NCBI GenBank assembly: GCA_002150815.3 | Contig: NDFF03000122.1 | Coordinates: 124,001-188,000, forward strand | Direction of reading: 5' to 3' | Length of the DNA: 64,000 bases | DNA from: Grammothele lineata | Taxonomy: Eukaryota > Basidiomycota > Agaricomycetes > Polyporales > Polyporaceae | Shown: one piece after another, positions 1 through 59,564 of the stretch | Numbering within the stretch: position 1 is the first letter of the stretch | Layout: the number at the start of each line of letters is the position of its first letter | Notes under the pieces: generated by a model | The model's database searches: none | Seen by the model: only the letters and a program-made list of their open reading frames with translations | Told to the model about the DNA's origin: nothing | Translations under genes and position numbers: made by a program

Positions 1-3000
1 GGGGACATCCACAGGTTCCCCGGGGTGATGAACCCGCTCCCTCCCGCGCCGTACACGAAGCCCCCAGAGAGGCTCTCGACCGTGTTCGACGAACCTATCC
101 CCAAACCCTCGTTAGTCCCACCCCAAACCCCCAAGCCCAAAAAATCCAATGGGGCACTCACCCGGCACGAGCACACTATCCCAAAAGTCCGCGCTGAGTA
201 TGCTGTCCATCGAGAGCATGTTCATGTCCATCCCCTGCGGCGCGGGCGCCATCGTCGGCGGGAACGTCGAGATGTCCGCCACGGGCCCCATCTCCCCGCT
301 GTACGAGAAGTTCTCGAGCATGTCCGGCCCGAACGCACCGTGCCCGTTGCGCGGCTGCGGCGCCGCGAACGACGGGCCCGCGCCCCCCGCGAGCGGGTCC
401 GAGGGTTGTTGCACGGCGCTCCCGCTCCCGTCCACTTGTTGTTGCTGGAGTTGCTGCTGGAGCTGCTGGTCCGAAGGCCCGTCCGTGCGCGCGTTGACGA
501 GCGCGCGGAGGAAGCAGCTGTACAGCGCCGGGGTGTGCAGCGGGCCCACCGCGATCTGGTCGAAGACGTTCGCGACCTCGGTCACGATCGCGATCGTCTT
601 CTGTTCGTGGTCCAGGAACGCTTGGAACTCGGGCCGGATCAGCTGCAGAGCCGCGTTATCAGCACACGCCTGCGGCGCTCGAGAACTGGAACTGCACGCG
701 GATGTGGATGGGATGTGAGACGGCCGCTCTCGCGCCGCACGCACCTTGAGCAGGCTGAGTACCGCGTAGGAGCCCATGACGAAGTGCGAGTCGGGCGCGA
801 ACTTGAGCCACCCGGACGGGCCGAGTTGTTCCGTGACGATGCTCGCGCAGCTCACCGCGGACGAGTGGCAGCGGGCGAAAAAGTGGCCGATGTCGACCGC
901 GGACCGCTCGAGCGCGTTTTGGAGCCCGAACGCGTTGATGGTGAGCATTGCGTAGTGGAAGTAGAAGTTCGCGATGTGCGTGCGGTACTGGGCAACCGGC
1001 TCGGTTTCGCCTGCGGGGATGAGGGCGGACACGGGCGTGGCGGTCAGGTTCGCTGCTGGGGCAGAGGAGGAGGGGGACGCGGGGTCGAGACGCGTACCGA
1101 CGGAGTGCCGGTGGTTCAGCCACTCGTGGTGCCATGCCAGCAGTTGGGTCTCCATCGTCTTTATTACGAGCAGGAAGTCGCAATCGACCTGCAGCCCGGA
1201 CGAGTTGGTCGTGCCGGAGTAGAGGAGGTCGAGGCTGCGCGTCAAGATGCGTTGTAGGTCCTGCCAATATGATCGCGTCGTCAGCGTCTAGCGCTGTGGG
1301 TCCATGATCGGCCGCGCCCCGACAGGTACGCACCGCATAACCAGCCAGCGCGCTATCGCCGGGCACGGACCACGGTGCGCGCGCCCATTGCGATGCGTTC
1401 CGGATCATGTAGCTGCTCGCCAGCGAGTGCGGCAGGGCAAACGCCGGCGACACCAATCACAGATGGGGCGGAAAGCGGGTCCCGGTCAGCATCCGTGTGC
1501 CCCAAAATGGTAAGCCGAGTAACACATACTCTTCCTTGATCGAGTACGGCTTGCCCATCTGCGCACTGAACGAGCGGTCCAGGCAGAAGCAGATGATCCA
1601 CGTCCGTTCCCGGTTGCGCACCTCCCGATCGCGAGCACGGCCTTCTGGCGTGTCCGGGCTGACACCGGTGGAGCGACGGTGCAAGTTAAGGTCGGTCGCC
1701 ATCCTGTACGTGCACGATGATATCAGTATATGGGGATCCTTAGAATAGGAGGGAACGGGCAGCCAGCGCGTGACCCCGGCCGCGTGCTCGGCGATAGTAC
1801 GTGCATGAGGCTACCGTCACCGAACAGCGAGTGGCGGCCGAGTATGACGACGATAACACGCAGACGTCAATTTCGGGAACGAACCTGATAGCCATGCCGA
1901 GGAGCATCCATGTCTGGTCCTGCTCGTATCGCTGCACGGGCCCGCAGCCCCACAGGACGTTGATGAGATAAGCCTGAACGATCTCGACCGACTTGTATCC
2001 CCTGGCAGGGACCTGGAAGGCGAGGTTGCGGGCGAGCTCCGACAGCTTGGTATGAAGGTCTGACCGCGCGTCGTAGAACCGTGACGCTACTGCGCAGACT
2101 GAACAAGTATCTGATTGAGCGGCTTTGCGGCGCGGCACTAGTGACTAACAACTCACTCGAGGTCAGGAGGAAGGGCGAACGCGAGCACACCAATGACGGG
2201 GTGTGGAACTCAGGGTCGAGGAACGGGGCTTGTACCTGTATTGTGGTTCAGCCAGGGGAATTTTCGGCATCAGTGTGTAAAGGCTTACATTCATATGATC
2301 AAAGTAGCTATAATCACCGCGATTGAATGGGGTGGGGAAAATAGTCAGCAACGCCCACGTTCATCGGCGGAAAGGCGTCAAGCGACGGTCGCTTACATTT
2401 TGAACAGTGCGACTACTTCTTCTGTGCTGACAAAGCTAAGCATCTCGGGCTGGATTTGCCGCTCGATATACAACCTCCGCAATGGGAGTATCGTCATGGG
2501 TCCTGTGCAAGTCAACCGTCAGGTCGGCACCGCGAGGCCCGCAGCGGCTCGACTCACCTGGCTTGAAGTAGACGTCGCTGGCGACGCCCACCTTGTCAGA
2601 CGTGTGGACGGCCTCGGTGATCTGAGACTTTGCGCCTGCCTGCGCGCGCCGGTTTGCTAGGCTTGCCTCGGCCAGAAGGCCCAGCGGGTTGAGCGCATTG
2701 TCAGGAAGGGAGTGCATCTTGGGCGATGGTGGTGCATGATGTGAAAGGTGGTGCCGACGATCTGGGGAAGGGGGCGGGGAGGGAGAGTTAATCAACGCTT
2801 GCGTGTTCTGAGCCTGGAGGCTGGGCGAGGGGGATCGAGATAGCAGCCCGGAAGCGACGCTGGGGTTGCCAAGCGAACGGAGGACGGTGTCTAATGTCCG
2901 CTCCATCTTCCGTAATGAGCGGGTCAAGATTTCATGTTTCCTGGGGCTGCAAATGAGTGCTCGGACCTGATGGAGAGGAGGGGTGGGTGCTCACTTGGTG

Positions 3001-3689
3001 GACCTCTTTCCGCGATTGGACTCCTCAAAGATGCACTCGTGGTTACCCGTCTGACACCTCTTACACGGTGGACCGTTCTCGGCACCGACGCACTTCATCT
3101 TGAGGCGACGGCAGACGGTGCACGCGCTAAGGACGCGTTAGCGGACGGAAAGAACGCGTCGGAGGGCAACATACCGTGAACCGCGGGTGGGCTTAGCCTT
3201 TGGCTCGTCCCCCTTCTCCGTGCTCGGGCTCTGAGCCTCGCCATCATCGTCCGGTCGGGGGCGCTTGCTGCGACCGTCGTTGGTCATGCTGTTTGACGAA
3301 GCCGGTCGCTTGCCGTTGACGTTGGAACTGAAGGAGATGGTGTCGTTTGGCGGGGTGCCGATAGTCTCGGAGCCGTGTGATGAGGGAGAGGAGAGGCTTG
3401 CGGAGATGGTAAGGTGGGGCGGGGGCATCTGCTGCTGCTGGTGATGGTGGTAGGAGGAGCCGTAGTACTGGGGTGGGTAGAGCGCGAGGGCGGGGTCAAT
3501 AGGGACAGGGGGCGAAGGCGGGGGCGGCTGCATTTGGTGTGCCAATGAAAGCTCGTGTGGATGGTGGAGGGTGATGGATTGGGAGGAGTAGACGGGCTGC
3601 TGGTGCTGGTAGGGGTTGTGGTGCTGTGGATGGTGGTGGGGGCTGTGATGTGTCTGAGGGAGGAAGTAGTCAGGGTACTGGGAAGACAT
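1..3689 (-). CDS. Zn(II)2Cys6 transcription factor with fungal-specific regulatory domain (C-terminus cut by window edge)
   Basis: This is a nuclear DNA-binding regulator of the GAL4-type zinc-cluster family; its target genes are unknown. I start it at the ATG at 3687-3689, which opens a His/Gln/Pro-rich N-terminus (MSSQYPDYFLPQ...). An upstream in-frame ATG exists, but the sequence before 3689 looks like leader. Exon 1 ends at 3175 after a basic Lys/Arg run, and a 48 nt intron (3127-3174) interrupts the start of the zinc cluster. Exon 2 then gives a six-cysteine C-x2-C-x6-C...C-x2-C-x6-C cluster (ACTVCRRLKMKC, then CKRC) at about 3000-3126. A linker that may form a coiled coil follows (RSLRKMERTLDTVLRSLG, about 2890). 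The PF04082-like regulatory region lies at about 1350-2150 (FYDARSDLHTKLSELA, RERTWIICFCLDRS). The last exon in the window runs from 94 into the edge after an intron at 95-161. The zinc cluster resembles the PrtT/WAR1-like subgroup, but I do not claim orthology. Internal introns between 1250 and 2450 were not all fixed. Confidence 0.85.
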
Positions 3690-4075
3690 GACGAAGAGGG
3701 AGGACGGGAGGGGTGGCGGGGCGGGAACTGACATTGGGGCGAGGACCTGGCAGAGGATGGCAGGCGAGCTTAAAGGAAGCTGGGCGACACTTCTTTTGCG
3801 AGGAGGACCGAGTTCACGTGGAGGGGCTTGCCGACAGAACGGGACGGAGTGCGATTGGAGATGGGAAAGAGGATGGAGGGGTAGGAGGTGAGAAAGAGCT
3901 GCGAGCGGGGGCACCGGTTCAGACAAGGAAATTTGGATTCACGACCGAGCCACGGCGGGCAATCAGAGAGTCTGCGGGAGGCTGTCGCCCTTGGCGAATC
4001 GGGTTCCGCGAGAGGGGGAGTGGGAAGCCGGCGAAGGAGACGCGATCTGGGACGGCGGCTCGGAGGGGGCGCGCA

Positions 4076-4100
4076 GTCGTCGTCGTCGTCGTCGTCGTCG
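4076..4100. repeat. GTC trinucleotide microsatellite
   Basis: Eight perfect GTC units lie 390 bp upstream of the start codon of the zinc-cluster transcription factor. No coding frame through it is convincing. Such repeats are prone to length change, so this could serve as a strain marker. Confidence 0.9.
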
Positions 4101-7100
4101 AGAGCGAGAAGCAGACAAGGCTCGAGCAGCGGGCAAAACCCTCCCCGCGTCCGTTCGGGGCGACGGAGGCAGCGTGACCCCCAGGCAGCGGCAGCCAGCG
4201 GCAGCCACTGCCTGCGACCCCAGCGCCCGCCGTCGCGTCTCCCGCGCGCCTCCCCCGCGTCTACGCCGGCCCTCCGCTCTGGGGTAGACGCCCCCCGATC
4301 CCGCCGTCCGATCTCTGCTCCCGCCAATCGCAGCCCCCTTATCGCCTCCGGCCCCGGCCCGCTCCCCGCAAGTCCTCCGCGGCCCGGCCGGCGACGGGCG
4401 CACGGGCGCTGGCGTGACCACCCACTCGCGGACTCCTCCTCGCCGCAACGGACGCTGCCCCTCGAGGCTCGCACTCAACCTACTCATTTCTCCGCCTCGG
4501 TCCCGCTTTGGGCAGCCCCTTTCTCACCGCGTCCCGTGGGAGCCCCGCTCGTCTACCGCTCGTCTCAGGAACAGAACGCGGCCCAATTCGTCCTCCCCCC
4601 GCTGACTTCATGCATTCTCCCAGGCCCGCCCCTCGTCCAGACTCGGCGATCCGCACATTCCAGACCCGCCCTCCATTCAATCCTTTCCACGCTCCCAGCT
4701 CCCCCATCGCGATTCTGACGTCCTCCTAGCGCGTCATGTCCATTGCCTGTCCTGTCTTTCAGGCCAATCACGTTAGTCTTGACGTCCTCGCCTCCATTCG
4801 GCTCCCACCCCAACCAACCTTCTCCTGCCAAACACGGTTTCCCGATCCCTTTCTCAACTAACCTCCGCTTCTTCCTCTACGTCTGCATCTCGCCATTGCC
4901 CCGTCGTCATCCGGTCCCAGCATCTTTCATCTCTCATTCAATCCCTCTCACGACGATTCTGACGCGAGCGTCTTTCTCCGTTTCGTCCGTTCCCATGTCT
5001 GCCACCCAACCCCCGCTTATCCGACCTGGGAACCAATCAATCCTATCTCACCTACCGTCTCTCGCTCCAGCTCCGCGAACCCCCCGGCAAGCCCTGACAG
5101 AGCACGTCTTTTTTCTCTGGAATTTCGCGCGCGTCTGTCGTGCGCCAGTCCGGCCGTGCGATCGCGCCCCTTCGCCTGATAGGCTGCCAATGTTTACGCT
5201 TCCCAAACCCCACCCAGGATCTCTACACGACAACCGGGCAAAACGTCTCGAGATCCACGTCGGAATTACCGCTCTATCCACCGCTCCCAGGCACGAGCGT
5301 GCTTTCAGACCCGCATCGCCTCCTCGTGACGTTGTCCATGAACACGACGGATCGCCGCCGCACCTGGCTCCTATTCCTCTCCAGCGCGCCCGCATGCACA
5401 GTACATTCATAGAAACTAAGCCGACACGCTCCACCCGCGGCGCAGTACCAACCTAAAAATCAAAGCGCTGCACGGGCGCACTTGAATCCTGCGTCCAGCG
5501 TGGACCGCGTCACGCCAACTCGCACGCCTCTTCCCCCACCCCCTCCGCGAAGGGCCCGGCCTACCGCCGCGCCGGGCACGCCGAACCAGTGCCCATGTCC
5601 TTACGCGGTTCTGTCCACGGTACCAACCCCTCGTTCCGCCCTTTGCTGCTTCGCGTCGCTCGTTCGCACACCCGACCGCCCTCCCGCAGCTCGCGAATCT
5701 CGCGACGTCGACGCTCGAACGTCCGGGCAAGCGAACGCGCGAACTGAACGAGGAACCCCCCACTCCCCACCCCTCGCGCACATAGCGCGGCCTGCGCCCG
5801 CCCCGCTCGGCTTTCCACCCCGGCCGCGATCCGCGATCCGCGGCGTGCGCGCCGCGGCGCGGGGGCTCCCACTGCCCTCGCGCCGTCCCGGGCGCATGGG
5901 CACGCCCAGGGCGCGCCCGCCCGTCCCGGTGTCTAAACTTGGTGCGTCCAAGCTCAATCGTGTCCGCGATCCCTGAGGCCCTGCTCAGCCCGGGCTTAGC
6001 CCCGCGCCCAAGCCTAAGACCCCGCTGCCCCTTCTCTCCCGCGAGGGCGTCGCGGCCTTGCGCCGAGGGCGCGTGCCGTGCGCGGCACGCGCTCCTCTAA
6101 GCTCCGTGCGCTGTCGCGTCTCTTTCGCGCCTCCCACATGCGCAACGCTCCGCGTCGCGTCGACGAGAGCCCGGGCGCCCCCTCCCCGAGCACCAGCGTC
6201 CCCCCAGTTCTCTCTTCTCGCCTTCGATCGCCGCTGCGCCGTCAGCGCCGCCGCCACCGCACCGCTCTCACAGGCCCGTCCCGCGAACCACCCGCCGCGA
6301 GGGCACCCAACGCTTTTTTTCCTCTCTGCTCGTCTTAGCCCCGGCTGGGCAGACGTGCTAACCCCCTTGTGGCGCAAATCATGTGTTTCGCGCCCTCGCG
6401 CCCCCCAGCCCGCTTCTTTCATCTCCGCGGGCACCACATGCGCCCCCAAACCCGCTCAGCCGGCGCACGTCCCCCCGAGCATATGCACGAGCTCCAAGGC
6501 CTCAGCCGGCGGCAGCCCGTCTCCATAGCGCAGCTTCATTGTCTCTATCCACCGCCCGGGGAGCGTTACGTGACGCGTTCCGCACGGCGGGAGCCCAGGG
6601 GGAGGCGGCGGGGGCGCACGACGGGCCACGGGTGAGGCGCATTGAGTCCCCATTTAGCGCGAGCTGGGCATACCCAGCCAAGGGAACCGTTAAGCACGGG
6701 CAGCGGTTTACCGGGGCGCGTCGGCGGTTCCAGGGCTGGGGGGCGCGCAGAATGGCGTGCTCGCCCTGCGCTGCGCCCCGCCCGTGCGTCCCGCCGAGCG
6801 GGTTCGCCTCGCTCTCTCGGGCTTCGAGCGAGTACACGCCGGGAAGAGGGGGTCGGGGAGTCACACCCGTTCTCGGGCTCGCGACGATTTTTTTCTTTCT
6901 TCGTTTTCCTCGTTCTTCGATTTTCTTCGTGCATGGGGTGCTTGCGAACCGCACGAGGACCTCCCGCCCGACCGGGGGAATGGGCTCGGCAACGCAGGAG
7001 CGAGAAGGGCTCGACAAACAGCGGAGTTGAGCCCGCCGTTGCCCGAAACGTGCAGAGACCGTCCCTGTTTTCTCGCGACGTCATGCGAGCCCGCCGCCGT

Positions 7101-7184
7101 TGCGCACATCGCTTGCTCGTGCACACTGGGCGTGCGCACGGGCACGCAGAGGCGGTCTCTCTAACGCCGTAAGACGTTCTCTGC

Positions 7185-7449
7185 GAAGGCCCGGCGTTCA
7201 CTAAGCTGCTCTCATCGGAGCGCGTCTAGAGAGAAACTGAAGGCTCGTCCTTCCCGCTAGAACCTTCCTGCGAGCTAAAGAGACGTTCTCTCAGCTCTGA
7301 GACTCTGTAGGTTTGACGCGGTATTCACTACGAATGGCCCGGTGTCCACTCAGCTGCTCAGCTCCCATCGACGGGCCCTCGTCCAGAGGGGAGCTGACGT
7401 GCTCGTTCTTCCCACTAGAATTTTCCTGAGCCGCTGTGGCGTTTTCTCG
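7185..7449. repeat. Diverged tandem duplication, two units of about 110 bp
   Basis: The unit at 7185-7292 and the unit at 7332-7449 align along their length. Both open with a GGCCCGG block, then an ACT(A/C)AGCTGCTC block, then a CTCGT(C/T)CTTCCC(G/A)CTAGAA block, and both end near CGTT(C/T)TCTC. By eye about 70 percent of positions match, with a few short gaps. No open frame is conserved between the units, so this looks like a noncoding duplication. A partial third unit may lie just upstream, near 7170. Confidence 0.6.
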
Positions 7450-10400
7450 TCGAACGCGCCGCTGCGCCGATTGCAACCTTGCGCCCCCCCCCTCTCCTCT
7501 ATCGATCTCCATGCTCTCAGGATGCTGCCCAGCACGGTCCACGGCGGCCGGCAGAAATTTCTCTAGCGGCATCCAGCGCGGTGTTACGGTGGCCATCGCC
7601 GTAGAAGGCGGGAGCGGGCCAGGGCGCTCGCTCTCATCCGTCGACGCGCCACGGCGTCGTCAGACTCAGACGCACCTTGCTCGACTTAGAAACAGCATGA
7701 GACGAGCGGCGGGCGGACGGTAGCACGCGGCGGTGTCGAACGCACACCACTCACTAAGCGCGGGCGCTCCCGCGAAGCACCGCGAAGCGGATCTAGCGAC
7801 GGCCGCGGGACCTTGCCGTCCCTTGGCCCTCCGGCTTGGCGTCCGCCCGTGTTCCCTCGCTCGTTCGACTGGCGCAATGTCGTCGTGCACGCACTGGCGA
7901 CGTCGACGGCGCGTCGCAGCGAGCGCGTCGGCCGTCGAGCACCCGCTCGCACGTCTGTGCACCCCCGCTGGCGAAGCTGAGAACCACGCCTGTAAGCGGT
8001 GAGAGCGCCGCCGCCCTTCTGGCAGTGGAAAGGCCCTCCCAAGCCCATTCCGAGGCTCGACGCTGAGTTATTTCGGTACGAGCCTCTCGAATTCTCGGGG
8101 AAGGACGGGCTGCCGCCCTGGCTGCGCTCTATCACGTTGGCCGTCGAGCGAGGCTTCGAAGGAGGGCTTCTGCGGGACGTCTCGGGTGTCGGCTAGGGCG
8201 CCTCCGTCGCGGTCGGGCTTCGGGCTTCACGCGCCCATCCGCCGCTGCTGGAGAAGGCAGCGCGCGCAGTCGCCTCGCGCACACGGTCGCGGCGAGGCGG
8301 CGCGACGTTGAGCTGCGTTGACCATATTCTCTTTAGCTCGAGTGCGTTTCCGTAACGCATGCCGACATCGAAGCAGGCACTCCAGCCGCGTAAATTGCTG
8401 TTGCTGCCAAGGTTATAGCTTTTGTGGTGGGGCCACGGTTTTCCTTTCTTTCTGACCAGCGTTAGTGCCGCGACAGGTACGAAGGCCGACCCTGGTCCAT
8501 TTGCTCAATTGAACAATGCCGACGCATCTGATGGCCATCTGAATCTCATAATCTCACAAAGAGACGTGCACGACCCGCATATGGAGCGTGCAGAACCAAT
8601 CGCAATTCATTCATTACTACACAGATTAGCCGGCCGGCGTTCAAAGGGCGCAGAATTGAAGCGCAGCTCGATGTACGGTACACACGCCCCCAAGGAGGAC
8701 ATAGACCGGCGGATCCGGACTGTCGGGCCGGTAAACAAGCTCGAGCCGTGAGTGCCACACAGGACCCGACGCCTTCTCGCCTCCCCGGCATCGAGCTCGC
8801 CGTGGGTCGGGACAAGTCTATAGTCGAGTTGCCGCGGCGCGGCGTGTCCTCCTCTGCCCGTTCGCAGGTACGATCGTCCCCAGAGTCTCCATGTCCATGC
8901 AGGACGAGTCACCCGGCCAGCACAGCCACCAGCGCGCCAGGGCTCAAGCGTTCCGGGAATCAAGTTCTGATTGCCACAGTAGTCGCCGGCATCAACGACA
9001 CGAACTGCTACGAGCAGGGTCGTCTCAATACACCGACGAGGTCGAATCCCATCGGGCGGACCATGACGCTTCATTTCGCTAGATTTGGGTGCGCGATAGT
9101 GGAGAGTGGCAATGGAGAGGCTCCCGACTGCGGGGAAAGAAGCAGAAGAAGCTGCGGCCTGTTAGAGACGGGGGCCGCTAGATTTGTATTGCGAGTATCA
9201 TTCTCCTCAACGACGATGCAATAATCGTCGCTCGCTAGAGCGTCAGAAGCCTGTCTTAGAGGAACGCACCGGCGAATGCATTGGAGCGTCTATTCCATGG
9301 AACTCGGTTCGTCCGCGGCTGGGCACAAGCAATGGTTTTGCCTAGCTGGGTATAGTGTGGGTCACCGTCTGAGAGCTCACTTGGGACGTCCAGAGCATCT
9401 TGCCAGCATGGCCTAGAGACGTTCTGGAGACTGATTACGGTCAGGTGAGAGTCAAATGTAATGGGTGGAAAAGAGACCATCTGCTCTTCCGTCATTCTTT
9501 CCCCCCAGGCACCCACGGCAACGCGTAATTCTGATAGCGGCGGAAAGGCGGTCGAGGATCTGAGACTAACACCTTTGCGTCATTTTCTGCATACGAAGCA
9601 ATGTCCTGGAACGGAGATGCTCAAGGTTGACAAGAATCCTGCGACACAGACAAGAGACTGGGCGCGGATGATTCGTTCTAGGACGCCTGCCATATATGGA
9701 GAGAGGAGGGGCTGGGTGGCAGCGGACGGACCGGAAAAGGGTCCGGGGTGCACAGCCGTGCGCGCTGGCCGACCGATCTGATTTCCCGAGTCGCCGATTG
9801 AGACTCGACGAACCCACGCGACGCGAGTCTGATCGTCCTCTGCTCTAGTCCTACTCCCTCATCCATCCGCTCAAGCCCAGCGGCCCTCTTCGTCCGCTCC
9901 TTCGCTAGACAGCGCACATCATGCGTCGCGACGCTACATCATCTGCATCCGCGACGCTCCCGAGACATTATTCAGGGCATCACGCGAGCTCGTCGAGAGG
10001 GGAACGTCGCTAGCGGCTCGTCATCTGCGTTTCTCCAACAGAAACGACACTCTGGAGACGCTCGTCGCGTGTTCGAAGCTGGCTGCGGGCTGCGTCCGGT
10101 GTCGCGCCTGCACAAGGATCGCACCCGATCGCCCTCTCCGTCTTCTACGGCCTCGAATCAGACATGGCCGCTCGCTCGACCGAGTTCCAAGTCAGCCCGC
10201 AGCTTCTCCCTTCCTCCTCCTGCCGGAGCGCACCCGCCATATCCCTCTCATGCCCATTGGGCACCTGCACATCTCCCGCTGACATGCCATGGCCGTCATG
10301 CCGTAAGTCTGAACCCATGGTCCCCATTGCTCCCCCGTAGCGGCGTACGCTGACGCACACTACCCACACCTCACCACAGCTCGCCTCCTGCAGCGGATCC

Positions 10401-54508: not shown

Positions 54509-54881
54509 GTATTCACCCTGCTGGAAGATACGAAGGCTTGGAGCAGTGTCGCTAGTAGAGTACGAAGGTGGAGGAGATGAGAGACGGGAGGACGGCCGAG
54601 GTAGAGGAGTCAAAGGCGGACTGGACCGACGATTGTGACGTCGCTCGGCGTCAGGCGGTGTTCCGCGGACGCGTCGCGGCACAGCGCGAGTTCGGATGCG
54701 ACTTAGACTCAAGCTCGTGTGTTCATTCTACTGTGATTCCCAGCCCGGACGACAGCGATGCACGAGGAGACTGGGTATGGAGCATACAACTACAATACAA
54801 CGATGAGGCCCAGCACAATTCTATCCAACATATTCCCTTGCTCTTCAACACACAACTTGACCAGAGTGCTAGTACTACTGC
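54509..54881. promoter_or_regulatory. COA1 upstream region
   Basis: These 373 bp lie between the COA1 start codon and the DNMT1 stop codon; both genes are on the minus strand. It should hold the COA1 promoter and the DNMT1 3' untranslated region. No specific element is recognised. Confidence 0.45.
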
Positions 54882-57800
54882 TTATTCAATCTCGGGGCTC
54901 TGCACTCGCTCATCTTGCAGAGTCCGTGCCCTCATCTCCAAGTGCTTGATGTATGCTTTACCTATCTCCCTGCCCAATGCTAGAGCTAATGGAACTGGCA
55001 CGGCATTTCCAATCTGCCTCAGTTGCTATTAGGAGAGATTGATATCAGTCCTGCTATGCATAAGTTCAGTAATTAGGACATACATCATCTACAATCTTGT
55101 TAGTTTCTGAGTTGGTGGAGCAGAACTTGTAGCTGTCAGGGAATCCTTGAGCCCTTGCACATTCCCGAATGGTAAGTGCCCTTCTTTGCTGAGTTAATCT
55201 AGAGCTTCAGTGCATGCCACAAGTTACAAAATCACTAGGAAAACACTTGCAGTTGGATGAAGAACTTTGGACCCTTTGGCATTAGGAAAGACTGTAGTCA
55301 TTGCTGTGGCAAAATGCCCATTTCCATCAAGCCTCCCAAAGATGTCTACTGATGATTAGGAGAGTTCACCATGTGGATGGTAGGCATACTCACCATGCCT
55401 CTTCCTCTTCTCTAAGTCCTGATAAGGCTTAGGGAGATCTGGAGATGTATCTATCAGTCTCAGAAATCTTAGGCTGTGATCCGACCATGATGTCCCACCA
55501 ATGTATCCAGCATTTGGCTCAAGAGGGACATTGACAGATCTGGGGATAGTTTTCTATTAATACTCAATCACATATGGAAGTAAGAGACTCCCACCTCTCA
55601 ACAAGATCACTACTGTACAGTCTTGTGTAGTGATAGGACACTAGCCCCTTGCCAGGGCTTCTCAGCCAATTCTGATAGCGGCTCAAAGGAGGGTGAAGGT
55701 ATGGAGTGGGCTCTTCAAACCCTGGAAGCTTCTTAAGAGAGCCATTAGGAGGCTTGACAGCTGGGAAAGACAGAGAGTCCTGTCTGGAGAGATGCTTCCT
55801 CTTCTTGACCATCTGGTGTGGGTCCTTCCTGCAGGTGAATGAGAAGCAAATCTACAGGATTACATATAAATCCTACCAGCTGAATGGAGGCTAATTGGCA
55901 GTTAACAAATGTATTCAGGAGGAGTTTGGAACTACTCACCAAATCAGAAATTGCATCACTGACAGTCACTGGTAGAAATGGTGCACATTGATGCCCTTCT
56001 TCTAGGCAACCAGAGCGGAAGGGTGGATACAGCCTATCACCTGTTGGCAGCTTGAAGTGCATGGCAGGTTTAGGGTAGGCAAACTGGGGGATTGGAAACT
56101 GTGGAAGGGGAACATCTCTTCGAGCTCCAAGAAAGATGACTCTGGAACGCCCTTGAGGAGCACCATATTGACCTGCCTGCAAGACCTTGAAGTGAACTTG
56201 ATATCTGCCTGGAGTCTTAATTGCTTAGATAAGGGATCAGAACAAATAAGCTCACCCAAGTGCTGTCATTGCACGCAGAATGAATTTGACTACTCCCATT
56301 CTCCCTTTGTGGTCTTCATCTTGAAGAGAATAGCTCAGAAGACCAGTGACATTCTCTAATAGAAAATAGAGAGGTCTGTAGAACTCCACATAGGAAATCA
56401 TGTTGCAGACTAGAGTACTCCTAAAACAAGATTAGCTGCATGCACATACAGAGAGGCCTCTAACCAAACCTTTCATCATCTGGATTCTACACAAAAATGT
56501 AAGCTCCAATGTAATAGATGTAAATGATGCACTCTCTACCCTGTGATGATTCATATGTGAGAAGCTCTGGCAAGGTGGTCCTATCAGAGCTAAAATTGAA
56601 TGACAGCATCATGAAGATACAATGCAAACATACCTCCATATATAAGGTCAACCTCTCCTCTTTGAGGCATTGGTGGAAGATCAACTTTCTGTAAAGGGCT
56701 TCTGAGAGGAGCTGGGTTGTGACCCTCAGCTGTCTCAATTGCATGTTGCAGTACACAGTTGGAACACAAGTCATAAACAGTGGTCCCCTTGTGGTTGGCC
56801 CTAAAATCCATGGTCCCATGTCAGTCAAGTACACTGTAGCAATGTGACACTTACTGATAGGTTTTTGCAGCACTTGGGGAAAACTCCACTGCCCATTTGG
56901 TGTGCACATAGCCAGAGAGATGGAAGCCTGTTGACAATCCTCCAGCACCTAGTTGAGAGTTAGCAATGGCAAGGGGAAGTGGATAAAGTAATCACCAGCA
57001 AATAGTTCTAAACCTCTTAACTTAGAGAATTTGTGAAGCAGACTGTCCTTTTGAAGAGAAGTGGCTTGCAGCACAGAATAGCATTTGCCACACTGAGGAA
57101 CACTAGAAGAGGACAAGACCTCTAATGCTGCCAGGGACCCTGGATGAAGAGACTTAGCATTGAGGTCACAGTAGAAATGATCATCTTCCTGGATCCATGC
57201 TTCAATCTCCCATGCTGAGTCCCTGGCTGAGGAAGGAAATATAACAAAGGCCTTTCCTTCAATAGCTGAAGGGTGTAGCAAGGTCCAGGTCTTGGTTCTG
57301 AATAACCTCCTCTAATATCCACTCAGCAAGACTGCTCAATCAACTGGCACAAGACTACTTACATTGTCCAGTTGTTTCAAACTATTACCACCATCCTTCT
57401 TGGCCACCAAGTCATAATGGCCATAGAGATTCACCTCTAGCTCCTGAAGCAGACCAGACCCATCAGAGATGAATTGGGTGATTTGGCCAATGTCTAGGAG
57501 ATTTCCACTGCCTGCATTGTGAATGTACACAAAGTCATTGACATGGTAGTCAATGCCTTGGTGTACAAACCCTCCATCAGGAAGAGAGAGCCAGAGTTCC
57601 TTCTGTTCTTGCATTGTTTTGAAGCCACAGGCTATGCAGGGCTTGTGAGGTGCACAGTGAGCAAGAACTTGCTCCTCTCCTGTGGAATACTGGAGAAAAG
57701 CATTGCTGGTATCATCTATGGTGAGCCTACAAGAGGACCTAAGTGAACAATACTGCAGAAGAATGTGCATTCAAAGCCTCACCCAGTGAAGAACAGGTTC

Positions 57801-59564
57801 TCACTACCATCCTGATCATCCAGAGGTTCCATCTCATTAATTGGCCAGGACTGTATGTTACAGTGAGAATAGATGCACTCTAGAGGGAGGTCTTCACATT
57901 CTTGCAGCCAGAAGAGAGCTCTAGGGTGGGATGACTCCTGCAGGATGGTCTGGGACCCATGTTGCAGCCACTGAGCATGAAAGGACTTCTTTGAATACTT
58001 ATGGGAACCAGAAGAGACCATCTCCTCATATAGAAAACAGATCTTGCAAAACCTGCACAGAAGTCAGTGTGTGCTCTTAACAACACAAGTGGTACTCACC
58101 AGAACCTGTTTGCTAGGTTATTCTTCAAACACTGGGCCTGAGCAGAGCTGGCATTTTTGGCTCTCTGTTTGTAGTGATCTTCTCCTTTGGTGACCAGTAC
58201 AATATCCCCAACCTGATAAGAACAATGATTAGCCAAAAACTTGACTACCAACCAAAACTTACTGAGTAGGTGACACTGTCAATGATGACACTCTTGTAAA
58301 AATGCTTGACGGTGGTGCCTTCACCCCATTTGATGGAGGTGGGATTGCGAGGGTGGACAATGCAACTTGCAGATGGTGGGAGGTCATGAGAGATGTCAGT
58401 CTGCATGTCCACAACATGGAGAGACTGTGAGAAGTGGCCCTCAGCAACTCTAGCCACCTTGGGAGTGACTACAGTGGAACAATGCTGCTGCAGCACAGCC
58501 TTCTCCCTACGATGCTGACCCTGTAGACAAAATCTTCTGGATGTGAGGGGTCTGCTGAGAGATGGACAAAGCTCCCTGAGGAGGCGGGATTTGGCTAGAA
58601 TCTTGTAGAATCTTGGATCATTCTCAGAGAACCTCTCCATTACTGCAGCAAGATAAGTTGTCTGAAAGTGCTATGAGCCCTGTCCCATAGACTGGCAGTA
58701 TAGTACTTACAAATTCTGAAGACCCCAGTAGACGTGCAGCTTCCACTGAACTCAACCTTGGCTCACCCACGGTGATGGAGAGATACCCCTCGTCTATGGA
58801 GGCATTGGGGTCTTGTAAAGCTGCCGTAAGGATCTCATGGGTAAGGGAGTGGTACCCTTCCAGATCCCGGAAATAGGTCAAGTAATCCGCAGCTGGTCTC
58901 CTGAGTATGTACCAGGCATGAGCAGTACGAAGATAAATTTTACTACAAGCAAATATCATTGCGTGTCAGAAAGGAGCGGATAACAAACGAACTCACTCAT
59001 CCAATGAGTAATGCCCACTTTCACTGTCAACGCAATGGACACTCCATTCCTGCACGTCGGAAATTCGTACTTTGACGCCGTGATTGGATTTCCAGTCTTC
59101 GTCCTCCTCACTGAAGGAGTAGACTGTCCCTGTACCCAGGACAGGCGCCTCGGGTTCGGAAAGGAGCAGTTGAAGGACAGGAATGTACTGGCGGGTGCGA
59201 GCGTTGAAGAGTTTGAACCTGTCCAATGATCTCACTGGAATAGAGTCGTAATCATCACCGGCGTCGGGTTCTGTTTCTCCCGGGACATCCAAGTCCGAGT
59301 CTTCGTCCGCAACTGGTTTGAAGCCTGTTCGTATGAACACATTAAGGTGCATATGGCAAGACGCAAACATACCGTACGAACTAGCGGAAAGGGAAACACA
59401 AAGTCAGCGAATTGGCGTATTCATGGGATAGAACAACGCACGGCCTCGACGGAACTTCAACCCAGACCTCGGGGAGATGCTTCCGGTTCTGACGTGATGC
59501 TATACGAAAGGTTCATACCAAGCTCGTGCCGATAAGTGCAATCATAATTACCTGTTCTTTTCAT
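54882..59564 (-). CDS. DNMT1: DNA (cytosine-5) methyltransferase, DNMT1 family
   Basis: DNMT1 enzymes restore CpG methylation after replication. Order on the protein: a short N-terminus, a replication-foci domain (about 58650-59330: VQEWSVHCVDSESGHYSL, LRTAHAWYILRRPAADYLTY), two BAH domains (about 57340-58300: YSVGDIVLVTKGEDHYK; GIDYHVNDFVYIHNAGSG), then the catalytic domain. Catalytic motifs are all intact: GLELFAGAGGLSTGF (motif I, about 57000), GGPPCQSFSHMN with the nucleophilic Cys (about 56570), LYFLLENVTGLL (ENV, about 56355), QAGQYGAPQGRSRVIF (about 56140), RECARAQGFPDSY and RQIGNAVPVPLALALG. There are about 17 exons, including an 8 nt exon at 59373-59380. One intron (55189-55250) seems to be GC-AG. 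The start is uncertain: I use MKRTASRQNRKHLPEVW at 59564, but a 3' splice site lies right before that ATG, so an upstream exon is possible. From about 54950 to 58700 the gene is almost free of CpG. Confidence 0.88.

Follow-up and report, generated by a model that had tools for sequence, protein, structure and literature searches.

Over most of its length, the DNMT1-type DNA methyltransferase gene carried by a 64,000-nucleotide stretch of the Grammothele lineata genome (contig NDFF03000122.1, positions 124,001 to 188,000; this whole stretch is the window below, and positions without a contig handle are counted from its first letter) is almost devoid of CpG dinucleotides, and the two further DNMT1-type genes found in this genome contain deserts of the same kind. 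The loss is a CpG-centred change of C to T that affects both strands, exons and introns alike, in all three genes found. It probably arose because the cores of the DNMT1 genes were methylated at CpG in the germline over a long time and the methylated cytosines deaminated, while selection kept the protein.

A first-pass annotation of the window, made from the letters alone, had described a desert inside the gene: no CpG between about 56276 and 58309, about a dozen in a block of 3.8 kb, exons and introns affected alike, and abundant CpG everywhere else. Direct counting confirmed this observation. The block 54950-58740 was found to hold 13 CpG, with an observed/expected ratio (o/e) of 0.066 and a GC content of 0.457, compared with 6267 CpG, o/e 1.09 and GC 0.60 for the whole window; 1000 mononucleotide shuffles of the block gave 198 ± 11 CpG, with a minimum of 163. 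No CpG occurs in the interval 56275-58309, which is flanked by CpGs at 56274 and 58310, whereas the longest CpG-to-CpG gap outside the block is 99 bp. Among the 17 introns, 16 (58710 to 55026) are free of CpG and the first contains 3, and each exon at or below 58661 holds 0-4. Codon choice for translation was ruled out as an explanation, given that the introns are depleted too. The profile of o/e proposed as a check on the annotation also bore it out, with a mean of 1.12 and a minimum of 0.72 among 630 background windows of 400 bp outside the deserts; these windows come from around the DNMT genes and do not represent the genome as a whole. The sharp edge claimed at 58.7 kb did not hold up: counts per 100 bp revealed a ramp of approximately 700 bp on the 5' side, with 0-3 CpG up to 58.8 kb, 4 at 58.9 kb, 6-7 at 59.0-59.3 kb, and 9 at 59.4 kb. 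The 3' side is steeper and lies at the stop codon, with 2 CpG per 100 bp at both 54.9 and 54.8 kb and, beyond it, 5 at 54.7 kb and 17 at 54.6 kb.

The gene (gene A below) reads without an internal stop in a hand-built splice model whose first exon is uncertain. Its product gave Pfam matches to RFD (PF12047; aa 44-175, 35 bits), to BAH in two stretches (PF01426; 80 bits, the better at aa 332-475), and to a full DNA_methylase domain (PF00145; aa 683-1154, 198 bits), and its best relatives in the PDB are entries named DNA (cytosine-5)-methyltransferase 1 (E 2.8e-68). The domains that define the DNMT1/Masc2 family, a family with CpG maintenance activity, are thus present in A: RFD, two BAH domains, and a C5-methylase with a catalytic PC motif. 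We take PPCQ to be that catalytic motif, and the names of motifs I, IV, VI, and VIII are likewise our assignments to sequences read from the model translation. With the desert beginning just past the RFD match and ending before the stop codon, the two BAH domains and the catalytic domain are covered, as had been annotated, in a gene that shows no decay in this model.

A search of the genome (41.8 Mb in 252 contigs) with PF00145 returned six matches at four genes, three of DNMT1 type and one DNMT5-like; the second DNMT1 copy that the annotation had suggested looking for was thus found twice over. Gene A lies on contig C101, genes B and C lie approximately 80 kb apart on C222, and the fourth gene is on C248, where a methylase match is followed about 2 kb downstream by an SNF2 match, presumably the DNMT5/Rad8 architecture. 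B and C were assigned to the DNMT1 type through spliced alignment to A, the whole-protein Pfam scan having been made for A; the last third of both models is poor in parts, and that of B contains one in-frame stop there. Protein identity is 0.30 between A and B, 0.32 between A and C, and 0.64 between B and C. At the nucleotide level, homology between B and C extends across 4.9 kb (67% identity), while A has no blastn match to either. A protein search of the genome with B gave 17 matches, all within the three genes, and a search for the RFD family gave one, in C only. No further DNMT1 copy, whole or decayed, turned up among the best candidates scored in the PF00145, protein, DNA, and RFD searches, which does not prove its absence because the RFD search misses known copies. 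No search was aimed at RID/Masc1, and the PF00145 matches fell only at the three DNMT1-type genes and the DNMT5-like gene. Two scans of viral contigs for relatives in other species found none, one without a pattern match and the other with 11 pattern matches but no relative.

Within the 264 kb around these four genes, 400-bp windows with o/e below 0.4 form exactly three stretches, one in each DNMT1-type gene (Table 1); the DNMT5-like gene has no desert. With no other such window in these 264 kb, spread from neighbouring transposons was rejected as a source of the deserts. The three have in common the BAH domains together with the first half of the methylase domain, and the desert of C extends past that of B on both sides. 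A gene-body pattern, with a CpG-normal 5' end and depletion to the end of the gene, is present in A, where the desert reaches the stop codon; in contrast, CpG returns in B and C before the methylase domain ends, close to motif VIII or shortly beyond it. The B and C deserts, of 2.0-2.6 kb, take up about half of the 4.9 kb of homology.

The mutational signature was read by comparing the three deserts (2211 codons) with the remaining parts of these genes (1185 codons). Before G, third-position pyrimidines were T312:C3 in the deserts vs T89:C117 outside (p 8e-55), with T388:C585 vs T163:C285 before other bases (p 0.22). NCG accounted for 4 of 537 NCN codons vs 87 of 310 outside, arginine CGN:AGR codons stood at 14:78 vs 92:14, and third-position A:G after bases other than C was 263:401 vs 114:205 (p 0.26). 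These shifts are confined mainly to the CpG context, and hence the low GC of the deserts derives for the most part from CpG loss on both strands. With CpG at 0.03-0.06 and TpG/CpA at 1.36-1.39, the deserts show the combined CpG loss and TpG/CpA excess of a deamination footprint, and the first-pass annotation was in this respect correct to describe such a footprint in an intact-reading gene. A foreign or converted segment, derived from a CpG-poor source through gene conversion, horizontal transfer or a chimeric assembly, would agree with the GC of the block (0.46 vs 0.60) and with the small shifts that persist outside the CpG context, but is extremely improbable: the third-position C/T ratio before bases other than G is in line with that in the rest of the three genes, the modelled exons continue across the desert edges, all three genes show a desert, and B and C are more alike in their shared core than outside it (identity 0.71 vs 0.66). 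A search of the genome with the DNA of the block matched only the block itself, so that no donor was found for the conversion from a CpG-poor copy that the annotation had allowed for.

Table 1. Positions of gene A, its parts and the CpG deserts of the three DNMT1-type genes (window coordinates unless a contig is named).
Feature	Position	Strand	Remarks
DNMT1-type gene A	54882..59370	-	hand-built splice model, 18 exons, 1178 aa; first (N-terminal) exon uncertain
Exon with catalytic PPCQ motif	56540..56580	-	model translation
Exon with motif VIII	55940..56204	-	3 residual CpG, each in an Arg CGN codon
Intron with GC-AG splice pair	55189..55250	-	gene A model
CpG desert	54950..58733	.	begins at second modelled exon, shortly after RFD match; ends shortly before stop codon
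CpG-free desert core	56275..58309	.	spans both BAH stretches and methylase motifs I, IV, VI
5' ramp of desert	58734..59400	.	CpG density increases toward gene start; 100-bp counts
3' desert edge	54600..54949	.	stop codon (54882-54884) and downstream stretch
Low-o/e stretch of A	C101:178751-182950		400-bp windows
Low-o/e stretch of B	C222:179001-181350		400-bp windows
Low-o/e stretch of C	C222:257701-260600		400-bp windows
Desert of A as used for signature	54950-58733		
Desert of B as used for signature	C222:179190-181160		
Desert of C as used for signature	C222:257862-260492		

With respect to the neighbouring genes, the names MCM7 and COA1 serve as candidate labels; one open reading frame (ORF) tried on the putative COA1 side had no Pfam match at E 0.01.

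The CpGs that remain in the deserts are concentrated at sites of protein constraint. Among residual exonic CpGs, 13 of 20 lie in arginine CGN codons, compared with 93 of 297 outside the deserts (p 0.003); by gene, the share is 9/12 in A, 1/4 in B, and 3/4 in C. This is taken as a sign of selection because either transition at such a site alters the protein. Between B and C, nonsynonymous and synonymous divergence (dN/dS, NG86 method; rough at such a distance) amounted to 0.22/0.95 in the desert, 0.20/1.20 in the N-terminal part, and 0.12/0.95 in 78 C-terminal codons; the desert resembles the N-terminal part in this respect, a further sign that the protein has been kept. These observations also bear on the proposal that the genes were selected to be free of CpG, a methylatable DNMT1 being one that would silence itself, and the desert a shield rather than a scar. 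The loss is indeed nearly complete and has been retained in both sister lineages, and the family is one with CpG maintenance activity. Nevertheless, the proposal is distinctly improbable: selection on single intronic CpGs must presumably be weak, yet all but one of the 17 introns in A lack them, the residual CpGs lie mostly where their loss would alter the protein, as mutation pressure predicts, and CpG is still present at the beginning of A and in the final part of both B and C.

Comparison of B with C suggests how old the loss may be. In their shared core, TG in B was opposite CG in C 0 times (16 expected) and CA opposite CG once (18 expected); with CG-opposite mismatches nearly absent, CpGs newly created by mutation have been eliminated. 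TG opposite CA was seen 9 times in the whole core (8.6 expected without codon constraint), and 3 times in the 1401 bases of aligned exons, where simulation of independent loss after the duplication gave means of 21-38 (range 11-52; codon-constrained, before later substitutions). This simulation is crude in that it ignores later change, and a corrected expectation was guessed to be approximately 12-20. The same test in introns (252 aligned bases with 5 mismatches and 17 matches) is too small to inform. CpG loss thus appears older than the duplication that gave rise to B and C, and CpGs that arose later have been cleared. Identity between the two genes in 200-bp windows is 0.58-0.79, excepting the short last window.

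This chronology matters for a process resembling repeat-induced point mutation (RIP) or methylation induced premeiotically (MIP), in which DNMT1 copies, extant or lost (for example, transposon-borne), would have been recognized as repeats, CpG-methylated and mutated, while the native genes survived by selection. Such a process is unlikely here, although B and C are sister duplicates that share a contig, CpG-biased mutation of repeats has been described in basidiomycetes with Masc2/DNMT1 (PMC4352252, PMC4457147, PMC6980582; papers are cited here and below for the parts consulted), and copies of dim2 were amplified and mutated by RIP in Zymoseptoria tritici (PMC8016269). The deserts cover less than the full extent of homology between B and C, the exonic TG/CA count falls short of the simulated values and, crude as the simulation is, makes the loss seem older than the duplication. 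No additional DNMT1 copy was among the best-scoring candidates, although copies now lost may have existed, and neither the blastn comparison of A with B and C nor the DNA search with the block revealed a repeat. In addition, a pair of RdRP genes approximately 6 kb apart (C232:221701-223590 and 227991-229896), with a divergence similar to that of B and C (68% identity over 498 bp vs 67%), is undepleted, with o/e of 1.05 and 0.86 in a 500-bp probe of each. Of the interpretation in the first-pass annotation, then, the footprint in an intact-reading gene stood, and its two alternatives, conversion from a CpG-poor copy and repeat-induced mutation after duplication, are disfavoured.

Depletion of the same kind was observed at TET/JBP loci. 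All 17 TET/JBP matches were probed, of which 8 are deserts (o/e 0-0.31) and 9 are normal (0.93-1.16); with 8 of 17 depleted alike, a CpG-directed process exists in this genome. Two of the depleted places were read over 8 kb each, L071 (C201:2001-10000) and L072 (C247:17001-25000). The former is depleted over 7.2 kb (751-8000) with a sharp edge, its CpG being 0.10 and its TpG/CpA only 1.14, and the latter is depleted for the most part. The two are approximately 69% identical over 3.8 kb, and each has an open TET/JBP frame of 130 aa, which indicates that the frame outlived CpG loss there too. Six ORFs scanned in these tracts gave two TET/JBP matches and nothing else. The depleted tracts are taken as putative old transposon islands, akin to the TET-bearing Kyakuja elements that Agaricomycetes carry (PMC12730594). 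Taken by themselves, the gene set (DNMT1-type and DNMT5-like genes, TET/JBP matches) and the short introns would point to a basidiomycete, probably an agaricomycete.

The possibility that many genes of this genome are deserts, with DNMT1 in no way special, was considered with control loci. Approximately 0.8% of the genome was read directly. From 41 contigs (12.0 Mb, known from earlier matches), 60 random 400-bp probes were drawn; one fell in the window and was dropped, and 1 of the 59 read had o/e below 0.4 (95% interval 0.04 to 9%). Both the limited coverage and that interval leave room for ordinary depletion, but it is very improbable, as the sole desert probe (C109:120556) sits 2.4 kb from a depleted TET/JBP match, and none of the 630 background windows, near DNMT genes as they are, falls below the minimum given above. 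Nine RdRP loci had o/e of 0.86-1.33, a BAH gene on C50 had 1.28, and all three SRA matches, on two contigs, had 0.67 or more in 300-bp windows. None of the 20 RVT_1 matches probed, out of 66, was depleted (o/e 0.65-1.40); the CpG-directed process seems either to spare retroelements or to have had too little time to act on them. Among the 66 reverse-transcriptase matches, 59 have no internal stop.

Germline methylation of the DNMT1 gene cores followed by deamination is thus preferred, but several observations weigh against it. The TpG/CpA excess of the deserts is below the 1.78 given by simple in-silico CpG conversion of the window, as if worn down by later substitutions, while CpT/ApG is raised to 1.32-1.36 in the deserts of all three genes vs 1.02 (1.17 in silico). 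Third-base A in GG, CT, and GT codons (82/459 vs 24/228 outside; p 0.013) is not explained by CpG loss. The undepleted RVT_1 loci mean that the process would have to be selective or slow, other desert genes may exist in the large part of the genome beyond that read, and B and C are sister genes rather than independent cases. Published fungal methylomes are reported to concentrate on transposons, with gene-body methylation described as lacking in most fungi (PMC7862722) or as very low on average, with some methylated gene bodies counted (PMC6627472). Finally, selection against CpG itself could yield a similar end state.

The proposed course of events is as follows. In nuclei destined for the next generation, the DNMT1 gene cores would be methylated at CpG, with the mark set or maintained by the DNMT1/DNMT5 system, which seemingly also acts on old transposon-like tracts. 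Deamination of 5-methylcytosine would then erase the CpGs, the gene start and the neighbouring genes would stay unmethylated, and the protein would be kept by selection during the loss. More speculatively, methylation may act in a feedback loop, with DNMT1 expression reduced at times of high enzyme activity; sensing of this kind by the DNMT1 gene is possible. Given the lack of blastn similarity between A and B or C, homology-guided marking would need separate triggers, and marking through feedback by the gene product, or an inherited ancestral mark, may be as likely. It can be proposed only tentatively that the DNMT1 genes are a heritable target of their own product, with a self-methylated core, a thermostat for methylation capacity, burned free of CpG; equally tentative is the corollary that this core was inherited through gene duplication while selection retained the protein over a very long time.

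Invertebrate gene-body methylation leaves exons and introns depleted, with low CpG o/e and a CpG-normal 5' end; the deserts resemble it in these depleted exons and introns and in the CpG-normal 5' end, and differ in that the 3' end of B and C is CpG-normal too. In plants, the DNA demethylase gene ROS1 senses methylation near its promoter. It shares with the present case a methylation-enzyme gene that serves as a sensor, a role that is putative here, where it is the gene core that is affected. A further difference from the invertebrate pattern is that most fungi are reported to lack gene-body methylation (PMC7862722). CpG-centred C-to-T loss is also known from transposons of the basidiomycetes Microbotryum, Ganoderma, and Tricholoma, where it has been read as methylation with deamination or as a RIP-like process (PMC4352252, PMC4457147, PMC6980582). 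The TET/JBP tracts show the same depletion, but the DNMT1 targets differ in being intact-reading genes in CpG-rich neighbourhoods. With dim2 of Z. tritici, a DNA methyltransferase gene was likewise mutated by the genome's own C-to-T machinery, in the form of extra mutated copies, many of them dead, in repetitive subtelomeric DNA (PMC8016269); here, in contrast, three genes read as intact, CpG alone is affected, and no dead copies were found. CpG loss in fungal repeats is already known (PMC4352252, PMC4457147, PMC6980582). Compared with the first-pass annotation, which had a single window to go on, the two further DNMT1 genes with a desert and the TET/JBP tracts with the same depletion are new. 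Among the open-licence papers listed, judged by title and the start of the abstract, there was no report of CpG depletion or methylation of a DNMT1 gene in fungi, which is weak evidence of novelty.

If the preferred reading is true, this genome would record a maintenance methyltransferase marking its own genes over evolutionary time, and would do so in a group described as having mostly unmethylated gene bodies. The DNMT1 genes would then exemplify, in nature, strong mutation pressure held in check by selection on the protein, and the ramp CpGs of the three genes would give access to whether self-methylation sets the level of DNMT1.

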